Assembly: GCA_024278075.1 (NCBI GenBank)
Contig: JAJRTW010000028.1
Location: forward strand, 1 to 36,480
Length of the DNA: 36,480 bases
Source of the DNA: Bacteroidota bacterium
Lineage (GTDB): Bacteria > Bacteroidota > Ignavibacteria > Kapaibacteriales > UBA2268
Direction of reading: 5' to 3'
Positions 22,838 to 36,275 of the stretch are shown in pieces. Made by a program: the position numbers and the translations under genes. Positions within the stretch are counted from its first letter, which is position 1. Each line of letters starts with the position of its first letter. The notes below the pieces were generated by a model. The model searched no databases. It was not told the origin of the DNA and saw only the letters and a program-made list of their open reading frames with translations.

Positions 22838-25381
22838 CTATTTCGTCAGGATGAACCTTCTTGTTTTCACATAGGGGCCGGATGTGAATTTTATTAAATA
22901 AGCGCCCGACGGCAAATCGTTCAAAGACACTGCCAAATAGTGTTTGCCCGGCTCTGCTGCCTGGTTGTATATTGTTTGTATTTTAGAGCCATACGAATCG
23001 AAAATCTCTATCGTAGTATTGGCCTTAAAACCAACACTGAAACGAAGGTTCAATCGGTGTTCTTCGATGGGATTCGGTGAGATATTGTTGAAGGAAAAAT
23101 CGTTTTCGCTATTGACAACACTGCGGATATTAAGTGCGCAGATATTTATTGTTACTATGGCTGTATCCCCGGATATACCGAGGCACAGTTGATACCGAAT
23201 GGAATCAGATGTACGAACCGCCGGCCTATATATAGCATCCGGAGCAAGTAACAGAACGAAAAACGGCAGCAGAAATGTCCCGGATGACTTAATATTACGT
23301 TCTCCATTTGCCCGTATTAACAGACTATTAGTCGAATCATCTATTTCGATAACTTCAACAGATGCTGCCCATCCCAAATCCTTTAGAATTATACCATATC
23401 GAAAAGAGCCTGTATAATACATCCATTTGTGATTATAGATTATCTCAAGAGCAATGGTATTCAAATTGATGTAGTCCCAATTATCACAATCTATTCTTAT
23501 TGGCAATTCGATAGTATCGCCCGGAATTAGCAGAGAATCCTGAATATATTCATAGGAAACATCAATTTGCACTATATCATCCGGAGGAAAAGAGAGTGAA
23601 TAAATGGCTATGTTGCCGGCTTTGTCCGCCACATTGAATATGGTTTTGGCAGTTTCGAATGTGTTGATTACATTCAGCTTGAAGGCATAGCCGGTTACAG
23701 ATTCAATGCGGCCCAGGTCAACGGTGGAATCTAAAACAAGCTCGAAATTATTACTGCCTTCGGCCAGCCACACTGAGTCAATCCCCGAATCGACCTGGGT
23801 GGGAATATCCGATATATCCCCATTGCGAACTTCCGTAACACGAACAAGATATTTTCCGCAATCGGGATTAGAAACATAAATATCTGGTTCTAAAGTGTCG
23901 ACCTCAAGATCGTCCACGGCCATTGCTGCCGGCCAGCCATAGGAATCCTTGTAGCCATATCCGTAGATGTATGCGCCAAATTTTGTATCGCCGGATATAT
24001 AGTGGACACCCGGCTCCATGTCGATAGCTGCCCAATAGAGGTTAGTTCCGGGAATGCGATTGGACAGCAAATTTGATTGAAGCGGCTCCCAAAGATATTG
24101 CCCATCTATTGTCAGTGATTTCAACAAGGCATTATCCTGATCGGTAGAATCTCCAACAGCCAGTATATTCAGCCAGTGGTTAAAAAAGGCAATATTTTCA
24201 TCAGGCGTCTGAAATACGGCCGACCGTACGAACTGCTCGTCCGGAACGACCATCACCATGAAAGGATCAAAATTTTCAGTATAATCCCAATCTGCCGAAT
24301 AGGAATATTGCATCACCATCACGGGCTTGTCGGCCTTCCATACTGCGGTTCCTTTTATCGAATTCCTGCCTGAATTATTATACTCAAAGAAATCTCCGGA
24401 TTTGGCAAGCATTGCTTCCCTCGAGCCCAATAGTTGTTTCGAGTCAAGATCATACCAGTCCACCCTCCAATTAGTACTATCCCTGGCAGCCACAATTCTA
24501 AAAAAGTCTCCTTTGCCTTTTCGCTTAAATTCAATTGATGTATAATTTCTGCCCCACGAAGAAACCGGAGGGAGCATTTCGCAAAGCAAGTCTCTGCCAT
24601 CATTAATATTCGACGACAAAGAGGTTCTCATATTAAATGAAATAAGTCCGATTGGCTTATTCGAAATTATTTTACTGCCTGACAAGTCAAAAACTCCTTT
24701 CGTCCTTCCATTGCCCCTCACGGTATAAATCTCTCCGCGATTTAATATAATATTTTCGATCGTATCCCCGATAGATCTTCCGCCGAGAGTTTTTGCATTA
24801 ATTCTTCCTTTGCCTTTGCCTATCAATTCAACTGTAACAATGGTTCTATCCTGGCTGGCAACAACAATGAAACCGGCTCCGCGCCGCGAATTATCTTGAT
24901 AGTGATCATAATAACTGACATGGATATACTCCTTGCCCCAAGCGAGAACCGGCAAAGCCATAAAGCCATCGGAAGAAGTTTGTTTAGAATTCAGTACAAA
25001 AACAGAGATAGGATCCTCGGAGAATACTCTTATTCCTTTCTTTTCCACTATTTCGGATGAATATACTTCCCAACTCCAATTCAGCCCGCCATTATTGGCG
25101 GAAAATGTAGTGATTTCCAATGGATTCACAATTTTGGTTGAAACAATATTGCCATTAAATTCGATGGAAGCTGTAGTGCTTTTATTTGAAGTAACATAAA
25201 TGGCGAGTTCATTCTTATTAAGGCTATTATTAAAATATTCATTTGGCGGGATGGCAATCCAGAACTCCTTTCCCTGGGTTGTGCGGCCCTGGCCGAACCG
25301 CTGGATCAGATTCTCGTTTTTGGCAAATACATTAGCCGGCAAAATCAAAAGTAACAGATAGAGTAGCATATTTGATTTCAT
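22838..25381 (-). CDS. large secreted protein: IgGFc-binding-type domain plus T9SS sorting domain
   Basis: An exported cell-surface protein of 847 residues. The signal peptide is about 1-20 (LLYLLLLILPANVFA). The region about 35-510 matches the IgGFc-binding N-terminal domain pattern: RTTQGKEFWIAIPPNEYF near 33-50, ISVFVLNSKQTSSDGFMALPVLAWGKEYI near 125-153, and PVMVMQYSYSADW later. In bacteria this domain is a predicted adhesive beta-propeller-like fold; immunoglobulin binding should not be assumed. Beta-sandwich regions (about 510-750) follow, and the end is a type A sorting domain (ISPNPIEEHRLNL...DLPSGAYLIKF...RRFILTK). An intact MITE sits 49 bases upstream of the start and may alter its promoter. 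Confidence 0.85.
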   Translation of the reverse strand: MKSNMLLYLLLLILPANVFAKNENLIQRFGQGRTTQGKEFWIAIPPNEYFNNSLNKNELAIYVTSNKSTTASIEFNGNIVSTKIVNPLEITTFSANNGGLNWSWEVYSSEIVEKKGIRVFSEDPISVFVLNSKQTSSDGFMALPVLAWGKEYIHVSYYDHYQDNSRRGAGFIVVASQDRTIVTVELIGKGKGRINAKTLGGRSIGDTIENIILNRGEIYTVRGNGRTKGVFDLSGSKIISNKPIGLISFNMRTSLSSNINDGRDLLCEMLPPVSSWGRNYTSIEFKRKGKGDFFRIVAARDSTNWRVDWYDLDSKQLLGSREAMLAKSGDFFEYNNSGRNSIKGTAVWKADKPVMVMQYSYSADWDYTENFDPFMVMVVPDEQFVRSAVFQTPDENIAFFNHWLNILAVGDSTDQDNALLKSLTIDGQYLWEPLQSNLLSNRIPGTNLYWAAIDMEPGVHYISGDTKFGAYIYGYGYKDSYGWPAAMAVDDLEVDTLEPDIYVSNPDCGKYLVRVTEVRNGDISDIPTQVDSGIDSVWLAEGSNNFELVLDSTVDLGRIESVTGYAFKLNVINTFETAKTIFNVADKAGNIAIYSLSFPPDDIVQIDVSYEYIQDSLLIPGDTIELPIRIDCDNWDYINLNTIALEIIYNHKWMYYTGSFRYGIILKDLGWAASVEVIEIDDSTNSLLIRANGERNIKSSGTFLLPFFVLLLAPDAIYRPAVRTSDSIRYQLCLGISGDTAIVTINICALNIRSVVNSENDFSFNNISPNPIEEHRLNLRFSVGFKANTTIEIFDSYGSKIQTIYNQAAEPGKHYLAVSLNDLPSGAYLIKFTSGPYVKTRRFILTK

Positions 25382-28318: not shown

Positions 28319-29335
28319 ATGGAAAAAATTACACTGCTTGGACAAAAACCCACCAGACACGGGTTTGGCCACGGATTGGTCGAACTTGGCGAGAAGTACG
28401 ACAATGTTGTTGTGTTGGGTGGTGACATAACCGGATCGGTGATGACATCTTTTTTCAAAGATCGCTTTCCGGATAGATTCTTTTCTATCGGAATTGCCGA
28501 GCAAAATGCCACTACAATAGCAGCCGGGATGGCTCTGTCCGGCAAGATAGCATTCTTTTCAAGCTATAGTGCCTTTGCCGCATTTCGTAATTCCGACCAG
28601 CTAAGAATATCGGTCTGCTATAACGAAGCGAATGTAAAAATCGGCGGCGGCCACTCCGGAATCACTGTCGGGCCGGACGGCGCCACACACCAATCGCTGG
28701 AAGAAGTATCTCTGTTAAGGGCATTGCCCAATATGACGCTTGTTGTTCCATGCGATTACCAAGAGGCAAAAAAAGCAACAATCGCATTGGGCGAAATGGA
28801 CGGCCCTGCTTATATCCGCTTCGGGCGGTCGGCCGTGCCTATGTTTACAACCGAGAATACTCCTTTTGAAATTGGCAAAGCGCAGATTCTTAGGGAAGGT
28901 GCCGATGTGGCTATTGTTGCTGCCGGGTTGTTAGTCTGGCAGGCTCTTTTGGCAGCCGAGCAGCTCGAAAAGAAGCATGGAATATCGGCTCGGGTAATTA
29001 ATAATTCGTCGATCAAACCAATTGATGTGGAAACTCTAACAAAAGCTGCAATGGATTGCGGCGGGATAGTCACCGCCGAGGAGCATCAGGTCTATGGCGG
29101 CCTGGGCGCTGCCGTGGCCGAGGTTGTGGTTAAGAATTATCCAGTGCCAATGGAATTTGTCGGAGTTAAAGATACTTTCGGGTGCAGCGGCGAACCCGAT
29201 GATCTTTTGGTTAAATTCGGCCTTTCGTGGAAAGAGATTTATGCTTCGGCTTTGAAGATAATCGAAAGAAGGGAAAAGAAATTTATCGGCTTCAGGAAAC
29301 TGACAGATATTGCGGCTTATTCCGAGGATATGTAG
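28319..29335 (+). CDS. transketolase, C-terminal subunit
   Basis: Pyrimidine-binding and C-terminal domain half of the split transketolase, 338 residues. Signature regions are DITGSVMTSFFKDRFPDRFFSIGIAEQNATTIAAGMALSG near 40-79 (including the catalytic Glu of GIAEQN), GGGHSGITVGPDGATHQSLEEVSLLRALPN near 112-141, and the C-terminal domain with VVAEEHQVYGGLGAAVAEV-like TAEEHQVYGGLGAAVAEV near 251-268. The gene is on the same strand as the N-terminal half, and both halves are complete, so this is the usual two-gene form with an unusual insertion between them, not a broken single gene. Confidence 0.92.
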   Translation: MEKITLLGQKPTRHGFGHGLVELGEKYDNVVVLGGDITGSVMTSFFKDRFPDRFFSIGIAEQNATTIAAGMALSGKIAFFSSYSAFAAFRNSDQLRISVCYNEANVKIGGGHSGITVGPDGATHQSLEEVSLLRALPNMTLVVPCDYQEAKKATIALGEMDGPAYIRFGRSAVPMFTTENTPFEIGKAQILREGADVAIVAAGLLVWQALLAAEQLEKKHGISARVINNSSIKPIDVETLTKAAMDCGGIVTAEEHQVYGGLGAAVAEVVVKNYPVPMEFVGVKDTFGCSGEPDDLLVKFGLSWKEIYASALKIIERREKKFIGFRKLTDIAAYSEDM

Positions 29336-29413: not shown

Positions 29414-29502
29414 CAATAGTTGATAGTTAATATTTATGGCGGTTCGTTGAATCGCCATTAAAATTTTTGTGGAATTCTTTTCCCGGCACAGCGAGGTATC
29501 AA

Positions 29503-31017
29503 ATGAGAAATATAATTATAGTTGTCATTACCTTATTAACAAGTATCCTTACCATTGCTAAAGCGCAGGACGCTCCCGGCACGGATAAGATATCTTACCG
29601 ACCGGCAATTAATGCCGGCAAATATTATCCGGCCAATCCGGACTCGCTCCGGCAATATATTTATGCGAAACTGGACACCACCAGCAAGAGTGTGGTCGAG
29701 ACTGAGATTCTTGGCATCGTGGTGCCCCATGCCGCCTATCGGTATAGCGGATGGGTAGCGGCAAGGACATATAAAAATATAATTGGCAAAAAGTACGATG
29801 CGATTATTATAATAGCTCCAAGCCATTTCCTGCCTTTTCGTGGTGCCAGCGTATTCAACGGCGACGGCTACGCCACTCCGATTGGGACGGCAGAGATAGA
29901 CAAAGAGCTTGCAAAGTCAATTGCCGCCGGGCATGAAATAATATCTTATTCGGACTTGGGCCATACGGCAAATGATACATTGAAAGAACATTCCATCGAA
30001 GTCCAACTGCCTTTTTTGCAGATAGTGCAGCCCAATACGCCGATTGTTCCGATTTTGGCCGGTTCGCAGGATGAAATCTCGAATGATGCTCTGATGAGGG
30101 CAATCGTGAAAGCTGTTAAGCAGTCGGGCAAGAAAGTGTTGATTATTGCCAGCGCCGACCTTTCACATTTTCACAGCTTATCCGAATCAAGAAAATTTGA
30201 CATTCCCGCATTGGAAACTTTCTCAAATTATGATTATTATAAACTTGAACAGAATTTTCTGGACGGAATATACGAATCCTGCGGGGGCGGCCCTATTGTG
30301 ACTATGTTGAAAGCTGTCGAACAGCTTGGCGGCTCGATGGCCACACCGCTGATATACTCAACTTCGGCAAGCTCTCCTGATATTGAAGGCGATACATCAC
30401 GTGTGGTTGGATATTTTTCCGGAATGGTGGTTAAAATCCAAAAACTAAAGCCTTTTTATTTCCCGGAATACAATTCCGAAGAAGTAAAAGATTTGTTGGA
30501 ATCTGCCCGATTCGGAGTCAGGAGTAAAATCATATCCGATTCGACAAGGCAGGTGTACTTTATACTCAGGAACCTTTCAATGAAGAAAGGAGCCTTTGTT
30601 GCTTTGAAAAAAGATGGGAAATTACGCGGCCTTATGGGCAGTAGATTCTCAAGCCTGCCGCTGCTTTTCTCTGTGGAAAGTGCCGCAAAAGATGCCGCAG
30701 CTGCCGATCCAAGATTCCCACCTGTTACGGCAGAGGAAATTGACTCCCTTGAATATGAAATATCCATTCTCTCGCGGTTCCAGCGAGCATTAGACACATC
30801 TGAAATCGCTATCGGCAACAATGGCCTTTTTATTACGAACGGCACGAAGAGGGGGCTTCTGCTGCCCGAAGTTGCAACTGAGAATCACTTGAACAAGCTA
30901 CGGTTTCTGCAATTAATCGGCAAAGAGGCAGGACTCGGCCCCGACGCTTTTTCCAGGCCTGATGTACTTCTCTACTATTTCGAAACTAAGTTGATTAGAG
31001 AGGATTCTTTAGATTAA
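29503..31017 (+). CDS. exported MEMO1-AMMECR1 fusion (AmmeMemoRadiSam proteins B and A)
   Basis: From the ATG at 29503, preceded by the GAGGT ribosome-binding site, the protein has 504 residues. Residues 1-21 are a probable signal peptide (IIIVVITLLTSILTIAKA). Residues about 30-310 are a MEMO domain with the family's metal-site residues in place: H76 (VVPHAAY), H108 (APSHF), D219/H222 (ADLSHF) and C260 (ESCGGGPI). H163 lies in HSIEVQLPF. Residues about 325-500 are an AMMECR1 domain (KKGAFVALKKDGKLRG near 361-376, ADPRFPPVT near 401-409, KRGLLLPEVA near 449-458). The usual Cys of the LRGCIG motif is Leu377 here. No companion radical-SAM gene is in the window. The function of these families in bacteria is not settled. 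Confidence 0.88.
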   Translation: MRNIIIVVITLLTSILTIAKAQDAPGTDKISYRPAINAGKYYPANPDSLRQYIYAKLDTTSKSVVETEILGIVVPHAAYRYSGWVAARTYKNIIGKKYDAIIIIAPSHFLPFRGASVFNGDGYATPIGTAEIDKELAKSIAAGHEIISYSDLGHTANDTLKEHSIEVQLPFLQIVQPNTPIVPILAGSQDEISNDALMRAIVKAVKQSGKKVLIIASADLSHFHSLSESRKFDIPALETFSNYDYYKLEQNFLDGIYESCGGGPIVTMLKAVEQLGGSMATPLIYSTSASSPDIEGDTSRVVGYFSGMVVKIQKLKPFYFPEYNSEEVKDLLESARFGVRSKIISDSTRQVYFILRNLSMKKGAFVALKKDGKLRGLMGSRFSSLPLLFSVESAAKDAAAADPRFPPVTAEEIDSLEYEISILSRFQRALDTSEIAIGNNGLFITNGTKRGLLLPEVATENHLNKLRFLQLIGKEAGLGPDAFSRPDVLLYYFETKLIREDSLD

Positions 31018-32443: not shown

Positions 32444-35400
32444 CTACCTGCATGTAACAAACCGGACGGTTTCCTTAACATCCCGGATAATCTCCGCCAG
32501 CAATTCAATAGTCTTGTCAATTTCATCCTCTGTCGTGTTATGCCCCAAAGAAAAGCGTATGGAACGGTGCACTTCTTCCTCGGCCAGCCCCATAGCCAAC
32601 AATACGTGCGACGGGTCAGGCAATCCGGACCGGCAGGCCGAACCCGACGACATAGCTACTCCCTTCTGATCCATAGCCAATACCAGCGACTCGCCCCTCA
32701 TATCCGGCAGTACCATGTTCAATGTATTTGGCAGCCTTCTATCTCTGTGGCCGTTTAATTTTGCTCCGGGCAGCAAAGCCACTATCTCAGATTCGAGCCT
32801 ATCCCTTAGCTTTTCAATATTGTTCTTACCATTAAGCCGGCTTATGGCAATCCGGGCCGCCTTGCCGAAGCCGGCAATGGCAGCGACATTCTCGGTTCCC
32901 GCCCTAAGCGAATGCTCCTGATGCCCTCCGCTAATCAGCCGGGCCAATTCCATCCCCTTTCGGATATAAAGAGCGCCGATTCCCTTCGGCCCGTATAGCT
33001 TATGCCCGGAAATTGTCAGCATATCAACCCCGAGTTCATCCACATCCACCGGAATTTTACCAATCGCCTGCACACAATCGCAATGAAATAAAACACCCCT
33101 GCTTTCGGCAATTCCGGCGAGTTCTATGATAGGCTGAATGGCTCCCGTCTCGTTATTGGCTGCCATAAGGGAAATCAGGCAGGTGTTATGGCGGATTTCT
33201 TCTGTCAATTGTGCCGGCCGGATAATACCGTATTCACCCACATCCAAATACGTAACATCAAACCCGTACTCTTCCATTTGCCTGAATGTGTTCAAAACGG
33301 ACGGATGCTCAATTTTACTTGTAATTATATGATTTCCGTCATTTCTGTTCTTTAGAGCAATTCCTTTGATTGCCATATTATTAGCTTCTGTGCCGCCGGA
33401 TGTAAAAATTATTCTCCTTGCGGTGCAATTAATTAATTGTGCAACACTCCTTCGGGCCGATTCTATGGCAAGGCCGGCTTGCCTGCCCTCGGCATAAATG
33501 GCGGAAGCATTGCCAAAAGTCCCGCTCAAAAATCGAATCATAATCTCTGCTGCCTCCGGGTGCAGTGGGGTAGTGGCGTTATTGTCAAGGTAAATTCTTT
33601 CGGCATTATTATATTCATCTATCGCAATATCCCTCGAAATCGGAGATTCAGATTCTCCGGAATCAATAATCAGTTTATCACCGGATTCGTTCGCCTTCTC
33701 CACCTCGCAGAGCAGTGTTTTGTACACCGGAAAACCCGAAATGGGGTCGAAATTCCGCAGGTCTGTCAATTCATTGATATTGCACTGTTGCCACGCCATG
33801 GGGCCGATTGGGCCGCCGCCGCCCATATTGGCATCGATAGCGCCCCGCACTATATCATCGGTTACATAAGCCCGCAATTTCACCTTGCCTCGCTTTGTTT
33901 TCACATACACCAAATCACCATTTTCGATTGACCGCTCACGGGCATCGCCGGAATTAATCGTTACGGTTGGCTCCGGCCGGTTCCGGCAAAGACTCTCCAC
34001 GCCGTGGTGCTGAGGGCGGAAATCAGTTGTAACCCTTGCTCCGGAATTGAAAACAAGCGGATAGGATTTGGCGAGTTCCGGATTCGACACAGGGCCTTCG
34101 CTTGGCTCAGTATAAACCGGCAGCGGGTTATATCCGTGCTCTTCCAAAATGCTCGAGGCAATCTCGAATCTGCCCGACGGAGTGTCGAACCCGGGCTTGC
34201 CGTCCGGCCTCAATAATCCCTTCTCCCATTTCTTATATTGCATCATAACAGACGGCAATTTGGCAATGCCACCGTTGGCCTTTACTTCATCCAGGCCGAA
34301 TCCGCTGCCCTCGAGCACATATTCAAGCAATTCGGTTTCATTCTGCGGATATAAATGGCCATAGCCAAGCCTGCGGGCTAATTCCGAAAGTATGAAGAAA
34401 TCATTGCGTGCCTCGCCGACAGGTTCGATTACTTTTTCTCTGATTCTGAATAGTGGCCCGTAAATCTGGTATGATTCAATCTCATACATTGTGGTAGCAG
34501 GCAGTACAATATCGGCAAAAGCCGCATCGGCAGTCAGTTGGCGGTCGATGCAAACAAGGAAGTCGAGTTCATTTAATGTCCTTTTCCAAATATCCGGCTC
34601 GGGCCAAGATGTAGCAATCGACCCTCCGAGAATAATAAGCGACCTGATCTTATATGGATTGCCGTTGAGGACGGAATCCGGCAGGGCAATTGCATGCGAC
34701 TCGCCCCTGTACTCGCTATAAACAGGGAACCGGTCGCGTCCTAAGGCTTTCCTGGTATTCGGATTTGATACCAAGCCGCTGCGGTTAACCGGGAATTGAT
34801 TTTCTCTCATAGAAAAGCACCTGCCGCCCGGCACGTCCAATTGCCCGGCCAAAGCCCACAGTGTCATAATCGCACGAATCGCCTGAACGCCACTGTCGCT
34901 GTATTCGAGGCCGCTGTACATTATCGGCGCCGCACCATTGGAGCCGGCAATCAATCTGGCCAATGATTTTACCCTATCCGCCGGCACGCCGGTAATGTTT
35001 TCAACAAGCTCCGGTGTGAAATGTTGGATATATTTAGAGAAGTCATCAAATCCGATAGTCTGGTTTTCAACGAAGTCATCGTCGCAAAGCTCTTCTTCGA
35101 TTAGAATATTGCAAATCCCAAGAGCCAAGGCTCCGTCGGTGCCCGGGCGGATTGGTATCCATTCGGCATTGGTCATTTTCACTGTCTTGGTTCGCCGCGG
35201 GTCGATTACAACGACTCTTGCGCCCCGATTATTAGCCTGCACTATCCTGTCCAAATCGCGCGGCGGGCTGTCGGTTGCCGGGTTGGCCCCCCACACGACA
35301 ATCGTCTCGGCATTCTCAATATCGGAGAACATATAGTGCCACATTCCGCCCATCGTAACGTGCGGCGCTATCATTGCAAATGATACATAGCAGAGAGCCC

Positions 35401-35836
35401 CTACGCCAAGCGTATTCGGCGAACCGAATGGGAACAATACGCTCGAGGCCGACGATATGGCAACTCCGGCAGGCTGGAAGACATCGCACATTGCAAGCTC
35501 GAAACTGCCGCGTCCGGTATAGATGGCTGTTGCTTCCGGGCCGTATTCTGATTTGATTGAATTTAATTTATTTACGATTATGCCGTAGGCTTCATCCCAG
35601 GAAATCCTTTCGAATTCGTAAGTTCCCTTGGCTCCGATTCGCTTCATTGGATATTTCAGCCTGTCTTTGGAGTAAACAATATCAGCCGAATGCTCTCCCA
35701 ATTTACAGATAGCCCCCAGCGGTGAGGAATCATCGGGCTTTACTTCGGATATTCTTTGCTCGCTGTCAAATTTGACCTCAACCCAACAGGCCGAAGGGCA
35801 AATCCCACACATAGCTTTTTTGGCGTTATTGTTCAT
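32444..35836 (-). CDS. fusion: molybdopterin oxidoreductase (DMSO-reductase superfamily) + cysteine desulfurase (NifS/IscS type)
   Basis: A single 1130-residue frame. Residues 1-715 are a full DMSO-reductase-superfamily catalytic subunit: an Fe4S4 site C10-x2-C13-x3-C17...C44, candidate Mo ligand Cys149 (GVGALCYVS), bis-MGD regions (VVWGANPATDSPP, VVVIDPRRTKT, DIVLPATTMYE) and a C-terminal dinucleotide-binding domain (about 600-715). About 30 polar residues follow. Residues about 745-1130 are a complete cysteine desulfurase: LDNNATTPLHP at the start, PLP Lys946 in SGHKLYGPKG, and catalytic Cys1068 in SSGSACRSG. The Lys-Cys spacing of 122 equals that of E. coli IscS. There is no twin-arginine signal, so it is probably cytosolic. 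The substrate is unknown and no electron-transfer subunit is adjacent. Sulfur delivery to its own cofactor is an inference. Confidence 0.9.
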   Translation of the reverse strand: MNNNAKKAMCGICPSACWVEVKFDSEQRISEVKPDDSSPLGAICKLGEHSADIVYSKDRLKYPMKRIGAKGTYEFERISWDEAYGIIVNKLNSIKSEYGPEATAIYTGRGSFELAMCDVFQPAGVAISSASSVLFPFGSPNTLGVGALCYVSFAMIAPHVTMGGMWHYMFSDIENAETIVVWGANPATDSPPRDLDRIVQANNRGARVVVIDPRRTKTVKMTNAEWIPIRPGTDGALALGICNILIEEELCDDDFVENQTIGFDDFSKYIQHFTPELVENITGVPADRVKSLARLIAGSNGAAPIMYSGLEYSDSGVQAIRAIMTLWALAGQLDVPGGRCFSMRENQFPVNRSGLVSNPNTRKALGRDRFPVYSEYRGESHAIALPDSVLNGNPYKIRSLIILGGSIATSWPEPDIWKRTLNELDFLVCIDRQLTADAAFADIVLPATTMYEIESYQIYGPLFRIREKVIEPVGEARNDFFILSELARRLGYGHLYPQNETELLEYVLEGSGFGLDEVKANGGIAKLPSVMMQYKKWEKGLLRPDGKPGFDTPSGRFEIASSILEEHGYNPLPVYTEPSEGPVSNPELAKSYPLVFNSGARVTTDFRPQHHGVESLCRNRPEPTVTINSGDARERSIENGDLVYVKTKRGKVKLRAYVTDDIVRGAIDANMGGGGPIGPMAWQQCNINELTDLRNFDPISGFPVYKTLLCEVEKANESGDKLIIDSGESESPISRDIAIDEYNNAERIYLDNNATTPLHPEAAEIMIRFLSGTFGNASAIYAEGRQAGLAIESARRSVAQLINCTARRIIFTSGGTEANNMAIKGIALKNRNDGNHIITSKIEHPSVLNTFRQMEEYGFDVTYLDVGEYGIIRPAQLTEEIRHNTCLISLMAANNETGAIQPIIELAGIAESRGVLFHCDCVQAIGKIPVDVDELGVDMLTISGHKLYGPKGIGALYIRKGMELARLISGGHQEHSLRAGTENVAAIAGFGKAARIAISRLNGKNNIEKLRDRLESEIVALLPGAKLNGHRDRRLPNTLNMVLPDMRGESLVLAMDQKGVAMSSGSACRSGLPDPSHVLLAMGLAEEEVHRSIRFSLGHNTTEDEIDKTIELLAEIIRDVKETVRFVTCR

Positions 35837-35948: not shown

Positions 35949-36275
35949 CTACGGCGTCCAAAGATGCTTCTTCAAATCCACTGCATCGTCAATAAAACCG
36001 ACTCCCTCGGCTTCCAATAGCTCCCGCATTAAATCCGGAGTGGCAAAGTGCAGTTTGCCGGTAAGCTCGCCGTTGCGATTGACAACGCGGTGGCAGGGCA
36101 GAGAAGTATCGCCGGCAACTGAATTCAATGCCCACCCGACCATTCTTGCCGAGGACTTCATTCCAAGTTCACGGGCAATTATTCCGTAAGTGGTAACTCT
36201 GCCGGTTGGTATTTGCCTGACCATGCCATGTACTCTATGGAAAAAATCTTTGCTGTTTGCTGATGATTCGGACAT
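35949..36275 (-). CDS. MGMT-domain protein (short alkyltransferase family)
   Basis: The 108 residues contain only the C-terminal DNA-binding/active-site domain of O6-alkylguanine-DNA alkyltransferases: VRQIPTGRVTTYGIIARELG near 19-38, SARMVGWALNS near 42-52 and SLPCHRVVNRNGELTG near 58-73. The acceptor Cys is kept (PCHRV), unlike alkyltransferase-like Atl proteins that have PWHRV, so transferase activity remains possible despite the missing N-terminal domain. A probable DNA repair role in the cytosol. It lies 112 bases upstream of the molybdoenzyme gene on the same strand; that gap shows no clear promoter. Confidence 0.88.
   Translation of the reverse strand: MSESSANSKDFFHRVHGMVRQIPTGRVTTYGIIARELGMKSSARMVGWALNSVAGDTSLPCHRVVNRNGELTGKLHFATPDLMRELLEAEGVGFIDDAVDLKKHLWTP

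Follow-up and report, generated by a model that had tools for sequence, protein, structure and literature searches.

A predicted metallopterin-dependent ergothioneine synthase in a Bacteroidota genome that also encodes a cbb3-type oxidase

The window analysed here is a stretch of 36,480 nucleotides (JAJRTW010000028.1, positions 1-36,480) from the draft assembly GCA_024278075.1 of a Bacteroidota bacterium, referred to below as the host. It contains a single frame of 1130 residues that opens with an ATG and has no internal stop; a preliminary description of this DNA had placed the frame exactly, though without saying that it lies on the minus strand (Table 1). The encoded protein consists of a molybdopterin oxidoreductase followed by a cysteine desulfurase of the NifS/IscS type, with Pfam matches to Molybdopterin (residues 59-488), Molydop_binding (606-707) and Aminotran_5 (748-1108) that all lie far over their cut-offs. 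More specific models fit less well. The C-terminal module scores 478 bits against the TIGR03402 NifS model, under its equivalog cut-off of 531, and likewise misses that for IscS; the N-terminal module scores 305 bits against the NCBI Fdh-alpha model, where the cut-off is 666. In a search of the PDB the closest solved structure to the N-terminal module is acetylene hydratase (2E7Z), together with thiosulfate reductase (2VPW), and those nearest to the C-terminal module are NifS/IscS desulfurases.

Directly upstream of the fusion gene and on the same strand (35949-36275, minus) is a 108-residue protein with an O6-methylguanine methyltransferase-like DNA-binding domain (PF01035), possibly an alkyltransferase-like protein. 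Further away the window encodes a secreted protein that combines an IgGFc_binding-like domain with a type IX secretion sorting domain, Por_Secre_tail (22838-25381, minus), and a protein joining Memo and AMMECR1 domains (29467-31017, plus). That the contig is a contaminant could be ruled out, as orthologues of the neighbouring transketolase gene (28319-29335) occur throughout the host's own family at 63-80% identity, which places the contig with the host.

Table 1. Predicted features of the fusion gene in the window
Feature	Position	Strand	Evidence
Complete MES gene, 1130 aa, predicted	32444..35836	-	Open frame, Pfam, 42 full-length homologues, match to described MES
N-terminal metallopterin (bis-MGD) module, residues 1-715	33692..35836	-	PF00384/PF01568, PDB search
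Variable linker, residues 716-746	33599..33691	-	14% mean identity to window protein, residues 721-746
C-terminal cysteine desulfurase module, NifS/IscS type, residues 747-1130	32447..33598	-	PF00266, TIGR03402
Fe4S4 cysteines C10, C13, C17, C44 (CaMES C14, C17, C21, C48)	35705..35809	-	43/43
C149, predicted Mo/W ligand (CaMES C153)	35390..35392	-	43/43; aligns with acetylene hydratase Cys
K946, PLP lysine (CaMES K952)	32999..33001	-	43/43
C1068, persulfide cysteine (CaMES C1074)	32633..32635	-	43/43
R1091, site of CaMES C1097	32564..32566	-	Alignment of 43 fusions
C1129, penultimate residue, second relay cysteine (CaMES C1135)	32450..32452	-	Penultimate Cys in 43/43

Relatives of the fusion were sought with a pattern scan over 84,980 prokaryote species, one genome per species. 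At least 49 loci were found, a lower bound because the scan detects only fairly close relatives, and 42 of these, from many phyla, hold complete fusions with the modules in this layout, at 58-70% identity. Assembly chimerism as the origin of the gene could be ruled out by the 42 complete fusions elsewhere. Carriers include Geomonas, Citrifermentans, anammox planctomycetes, Nitrospirota, Chloroflexota and Gemmatimonadota, as well as Actinomycetota, Magnetococcales and the archaeal Methanosarcinales. The same description had looked to a stop or frameshift in the linker, or to homologues encoded as two genes, as grounds for doubting a true fusion. None of the 49 related loci has the fusion split into two genes, a few being interrupted by contig ends, and the frame runs open through the linker in the window and in every related locus extending that far, with one exception: the gene of Candidatus Magnetominusculus LBB02 (L073:1297-4742) is frameshifted, whether really or by sequencing error.

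The active-site residues named from the sequence alone (C10/13/17/44, C149, K946 and C1068) are all present in the window protein and invariant in all 43 aligned fusions, that is the 42 complete ones and the window protein; equally invariant is C1129, which had been overlooked. Also borne out is the linker of about 30 residues, the least conserved stretch of the protein: mean identity to the window protein is 67% over the Mo part and 56% over the desulfurase part, and reaches its lowest value, 14%, over residues 721-746. Two residues of the window protein, F851 and R1091, deviate from the family majority. At the second of these positions a cysteine is found in 41 of the 43 fusions, with arginine in the window protein and glutamine in L076.

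Contrary to the earlier belief that no enzyme of such architecture had been described, this one was reported by Beliaeva and Seebeck as metallopterin-dependent ergothioneine synthase, or MES (JACS Au 2022, PMC9516567). The characterised enzyme is from Caldithrix abyssi (CaMES, 1136 residues), with the homologues AbMES, EaMES and hvMES (PMC9516567). When expressed in E. coli, CaMES makes ergothioneine, its desulfurase turning cysteine into alanine (PMC9516567). The residues C153, K952, C1074 and C1135 are essential, mutation of C153 abolishing activity (PMC9516567). Residue numbers printed in that paper map onto the window protein with a constant offset of +4 in the N-terminal part (C14, C17, C21, C48 and C153 to C10, C13, C17, C44 and C149) and of +6 in the C-terminal part (K952, C1074, C1097 and C1135 to K946, C1068, R1091 and C1129); membership of the MES family rests on these printed numbers. 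C1097 has been termed strictly conserved in MES, yet C1097S costs CaMES only about two-fold (PMC9516567), and this cysteine is therefore not defining of MES function. Its replacement by R1091, as read from the alignment, is a new detail; on a bolder reading, the lineage carrying it might relay sulfur by a shorter path or to another acceptor.

MES has been found co-encoded with the histidine methyltransferase EgtD in 55 genomes (PMC9516567), and among the neighbours of the fusion in our 49 loci EgtD alone recurs widely. It adjoins the fusion in 33 of them, upstream or downstream, on the same strand in 30 of the 33 and at gaps of 27-377 bp (1383 bp in one case). Where at least 1.5 kb is available on both sides the proportion is 23 of 29 loci. 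By comparison, EgtD is absent from all 19 control loci, which were taken around unfused desulfurases and are only about 4 kb long. Of the carrier genomes, 16 lack EgtD at the locus; ten of them have it elsewhere, and it was not found in 6 of the 49, which are mostly or all draft MAGs. A small DUF427 protein (PF04248) lies near the MES gene in L054, L062, L065, L066 and L075 (e.g. L066:7388-7672, plus).

The host genome has one EgtD (G000:C17:215-1141; PF10017, E=2.5e-95), close to mycobacterial EgtD structures, which at 287.5 bits falls 3.4 short of the NCBI EgtD model cut-off of 290.9. Y39, Y56, N166, Y206, E282 and S284 of the histidine site, most of which are known histidine contacts (PMC8593015), are all kept, and position 252 is serine in the host and methionine in mycobacteria. 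The frame follows a QueE-like radical SAM gene at the extreme end of contig C17 (L082:209-1928, minus). This is not the MES contig, and linkage of the two genes in the host cannot be shown because EgtD sits on a separate contig of the draft; both genes are at contig ends in what would be collinear orientations, and no end sequence shared by the two contigs was found. EgtB was not found in the host (39 bits against the EgtB model, cut-off 360), and moaA/MoaA is present.

Considering these observations together, the window gene very probably encodes an MES that transfers sulfur from cysteine to trimethylhistidine in cis, through its Mo/W site, at each turnover; a function equal to that of CaMES is what the conserved residues of this orthologue would imply. 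By analogy with CaMES, the C-terminal PLP desulfurase would move the sulfur of L-cysteine onto C1068, from where it would pass, probably by way of a persulfide on C1129 in the C-terminal tail, to the terminal position of Mo or W. The receiving site would be the bis-MGD of the N-terminal module of the same polypeptide, with C149 as metal ligand and an Fe4S4 cluster on C10/13/17/44. The metal-bound sulfur would then go to the imidazole C2 of the N-alpha-trimethylhistidine made by the host EgtD, giving ergothioneine without O2. The electrophilic Mo=S (sulfido) mechanism is a tentative proposal even in the MES paper (PMC9516567).

The preliminary description had supposed that the desulfurase matures the oxidoreductase in cis: it would sulfurate the Mo cofactor once and so activate a formate dehydrogenase-like enzyme, replacing FdhD on the same chain. 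The sulfido ligand of formate dehydrogenase originates from IscS via FdhD, and the suggested check for fdhD elsewhere in the genome went as this idea predicts, FdhD not being found in the host genome by a search that does match in controls, E. coli and B. subtilis among them; the N-terminal part also matches the Fdh-alpha model, though far below the cut-off. However, the nearest solved relative is acetylene hydratase and not formate dehydrogenase, and electron-transfer subunits do not recur beside the gene, where only EgtD does. Without fdhD in the genome the enzyme does not qualify as an FdhD-dependent formate dehydrogenase; nor does the lack of FdhD require a substitute, formate dehydrogenase not being what the gene encodes. 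Moreover, the metallopterin site stays active in a desulfurase-dead CaMES mutant, in which sulfur exchange between ergothioneine and trimethylhistidine persists (PMC9516567); the desulfurase would thus supply substrate sulfur at every turnover rather than activate the enzyme, a role that we extend to the window protein by analogy. Maturation is accordingly a very unlikely account, whereas transfer in cis agrees with a published complementation test that confined sulfur transfer in CaMES to one polypeptide (PMC9516567). The other earlier proposal, that cysteine sulfur chemistry is coupled to a Mo-dependent reaction, was essentially right, without ergothioneine having been guessed as the product.

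It is similarly improbable that the gene encodes an MES paralogue thiolating a different heterocycle or another betaine in place of trimethylhistidine. The MES authors do suggest that other Mo enzymes might sulfurate heterocycles (PMC9516567), and R1091, F851 and the serine at position 252 of EgtD would fit a shifted specificity, but the host EgtD has the full histidine-site set and the Mo module shares 67% identity on average with the other fusions, EgtD lying beside most of them. An acetylene hydratase or polysulfide/thiosulfate reductase bearing an accidental fusion would explain why, among PDB entries, the N-terminal module matches 2E7Z and 2VPW best, but is next to negligible given that the fusion is conserved across phyla without recurrent electron-transfer subunits and that the catalytic Asp of acetylene hydratase, adjacent to its second Fe-S cysteine, is replaced by P14 here and by Pro, Ser or Ala in the family.

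As an MES, the window protein receives a specific, testable function in place of automatic best matches divided between 'formate dehydrogenase alpha' and 'NifS'. Its occurrence in this host is isolated. Among the matches listed, none of 60 relatives has the full-length fusion, and when 395 genomes sampled from the phylum were searched with the first 545 residues (E<=1e-90) only the host itself had the gene; no MES was found on plasmids at E<=1e-100. This patchy occurrence, with identities of 58-70% that hold across phyla and extend to an archaeon, suggests that the gene has spread by horizontal transfer. MES has been described as exclusive to anaerobes (PMC9516567). The host has a cbb3-type cytochrome oxidase in which CcoN and CcoO are fused (709 aa, above cut-off; G000:C255, L086:568-2697, plus), and its other large Mo enzyme is of the NarG type (1206 aa, TIGR01580 above cut-off; G000:C183, L078:1231-4851, plus) and may act as nitrate reductase or as nitrite oxidoreductase, so that the host may respire oxygen or nitrate. 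The oxidase suggests an ability to respire oxygen, though alone it is no proof of growth with O2. Somewhat short of an even chance, in our view, is that a horizontally acquired MES works here in a host with a high-affinity cbb3 oxidase, and that strict anaerobes are not the only organisms to make ergothioneine by the O2-independent route. More broadly, the 49 loci suggest that Mo/W-dependent ergothioneine synthesis is widespread among both bacteria and archaea and extends to at least one lineage that has a terminal oxidase.

Several known systems resemble parts of the window protein. ABA3/MOCOS, the Mo-cofactor sulfurase, works like it in that a cysteine desulfurase delivers sulfur to a Mo cofactor, a likeness of function; ABA3 is a desulfurase with a MOSC domain and matures enzymes of the xanthine oxidase family. 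Acetylene hydratase from Syntrophotalea (Pelobacter) acetylenica (2E7Z) shares the N-terminal fold family, the Fe4S4 motif and a Cys metal ligand, but has no desulfurase, and its catalytic Asp is not conserved in the window protein. NifS/IscS desulfurases share the PLP lysine and persulfide cysteine; unlike them, the window protein is fused to a Mo module, has an extra invariant penultimate cysteine and scores below their equivalog cut-offs. Cysteine desulfurase comes up in general terms only in the consulted passages of a previous survey of domain fusions in Mo enzymes (PMC6147048). The broad range of carriers is likewise new as far as the main text of PMC9516567 goes, where Geobacter, anammox bacteria and Kuenenia go unnamed. 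The closest likeness is to MES, in module order, near-equal length to CaMES, all essential residues, the tie to EgtD and an N-terminal module related to acetylene hydratase. The differences are R1091 at the site of C1097, an EgtD on a separate contig of the draft and a host with a cbb3-type oxidase; what is new is therefore a set of modest additions to an already described enzyme family, mainly the place where it occurs.
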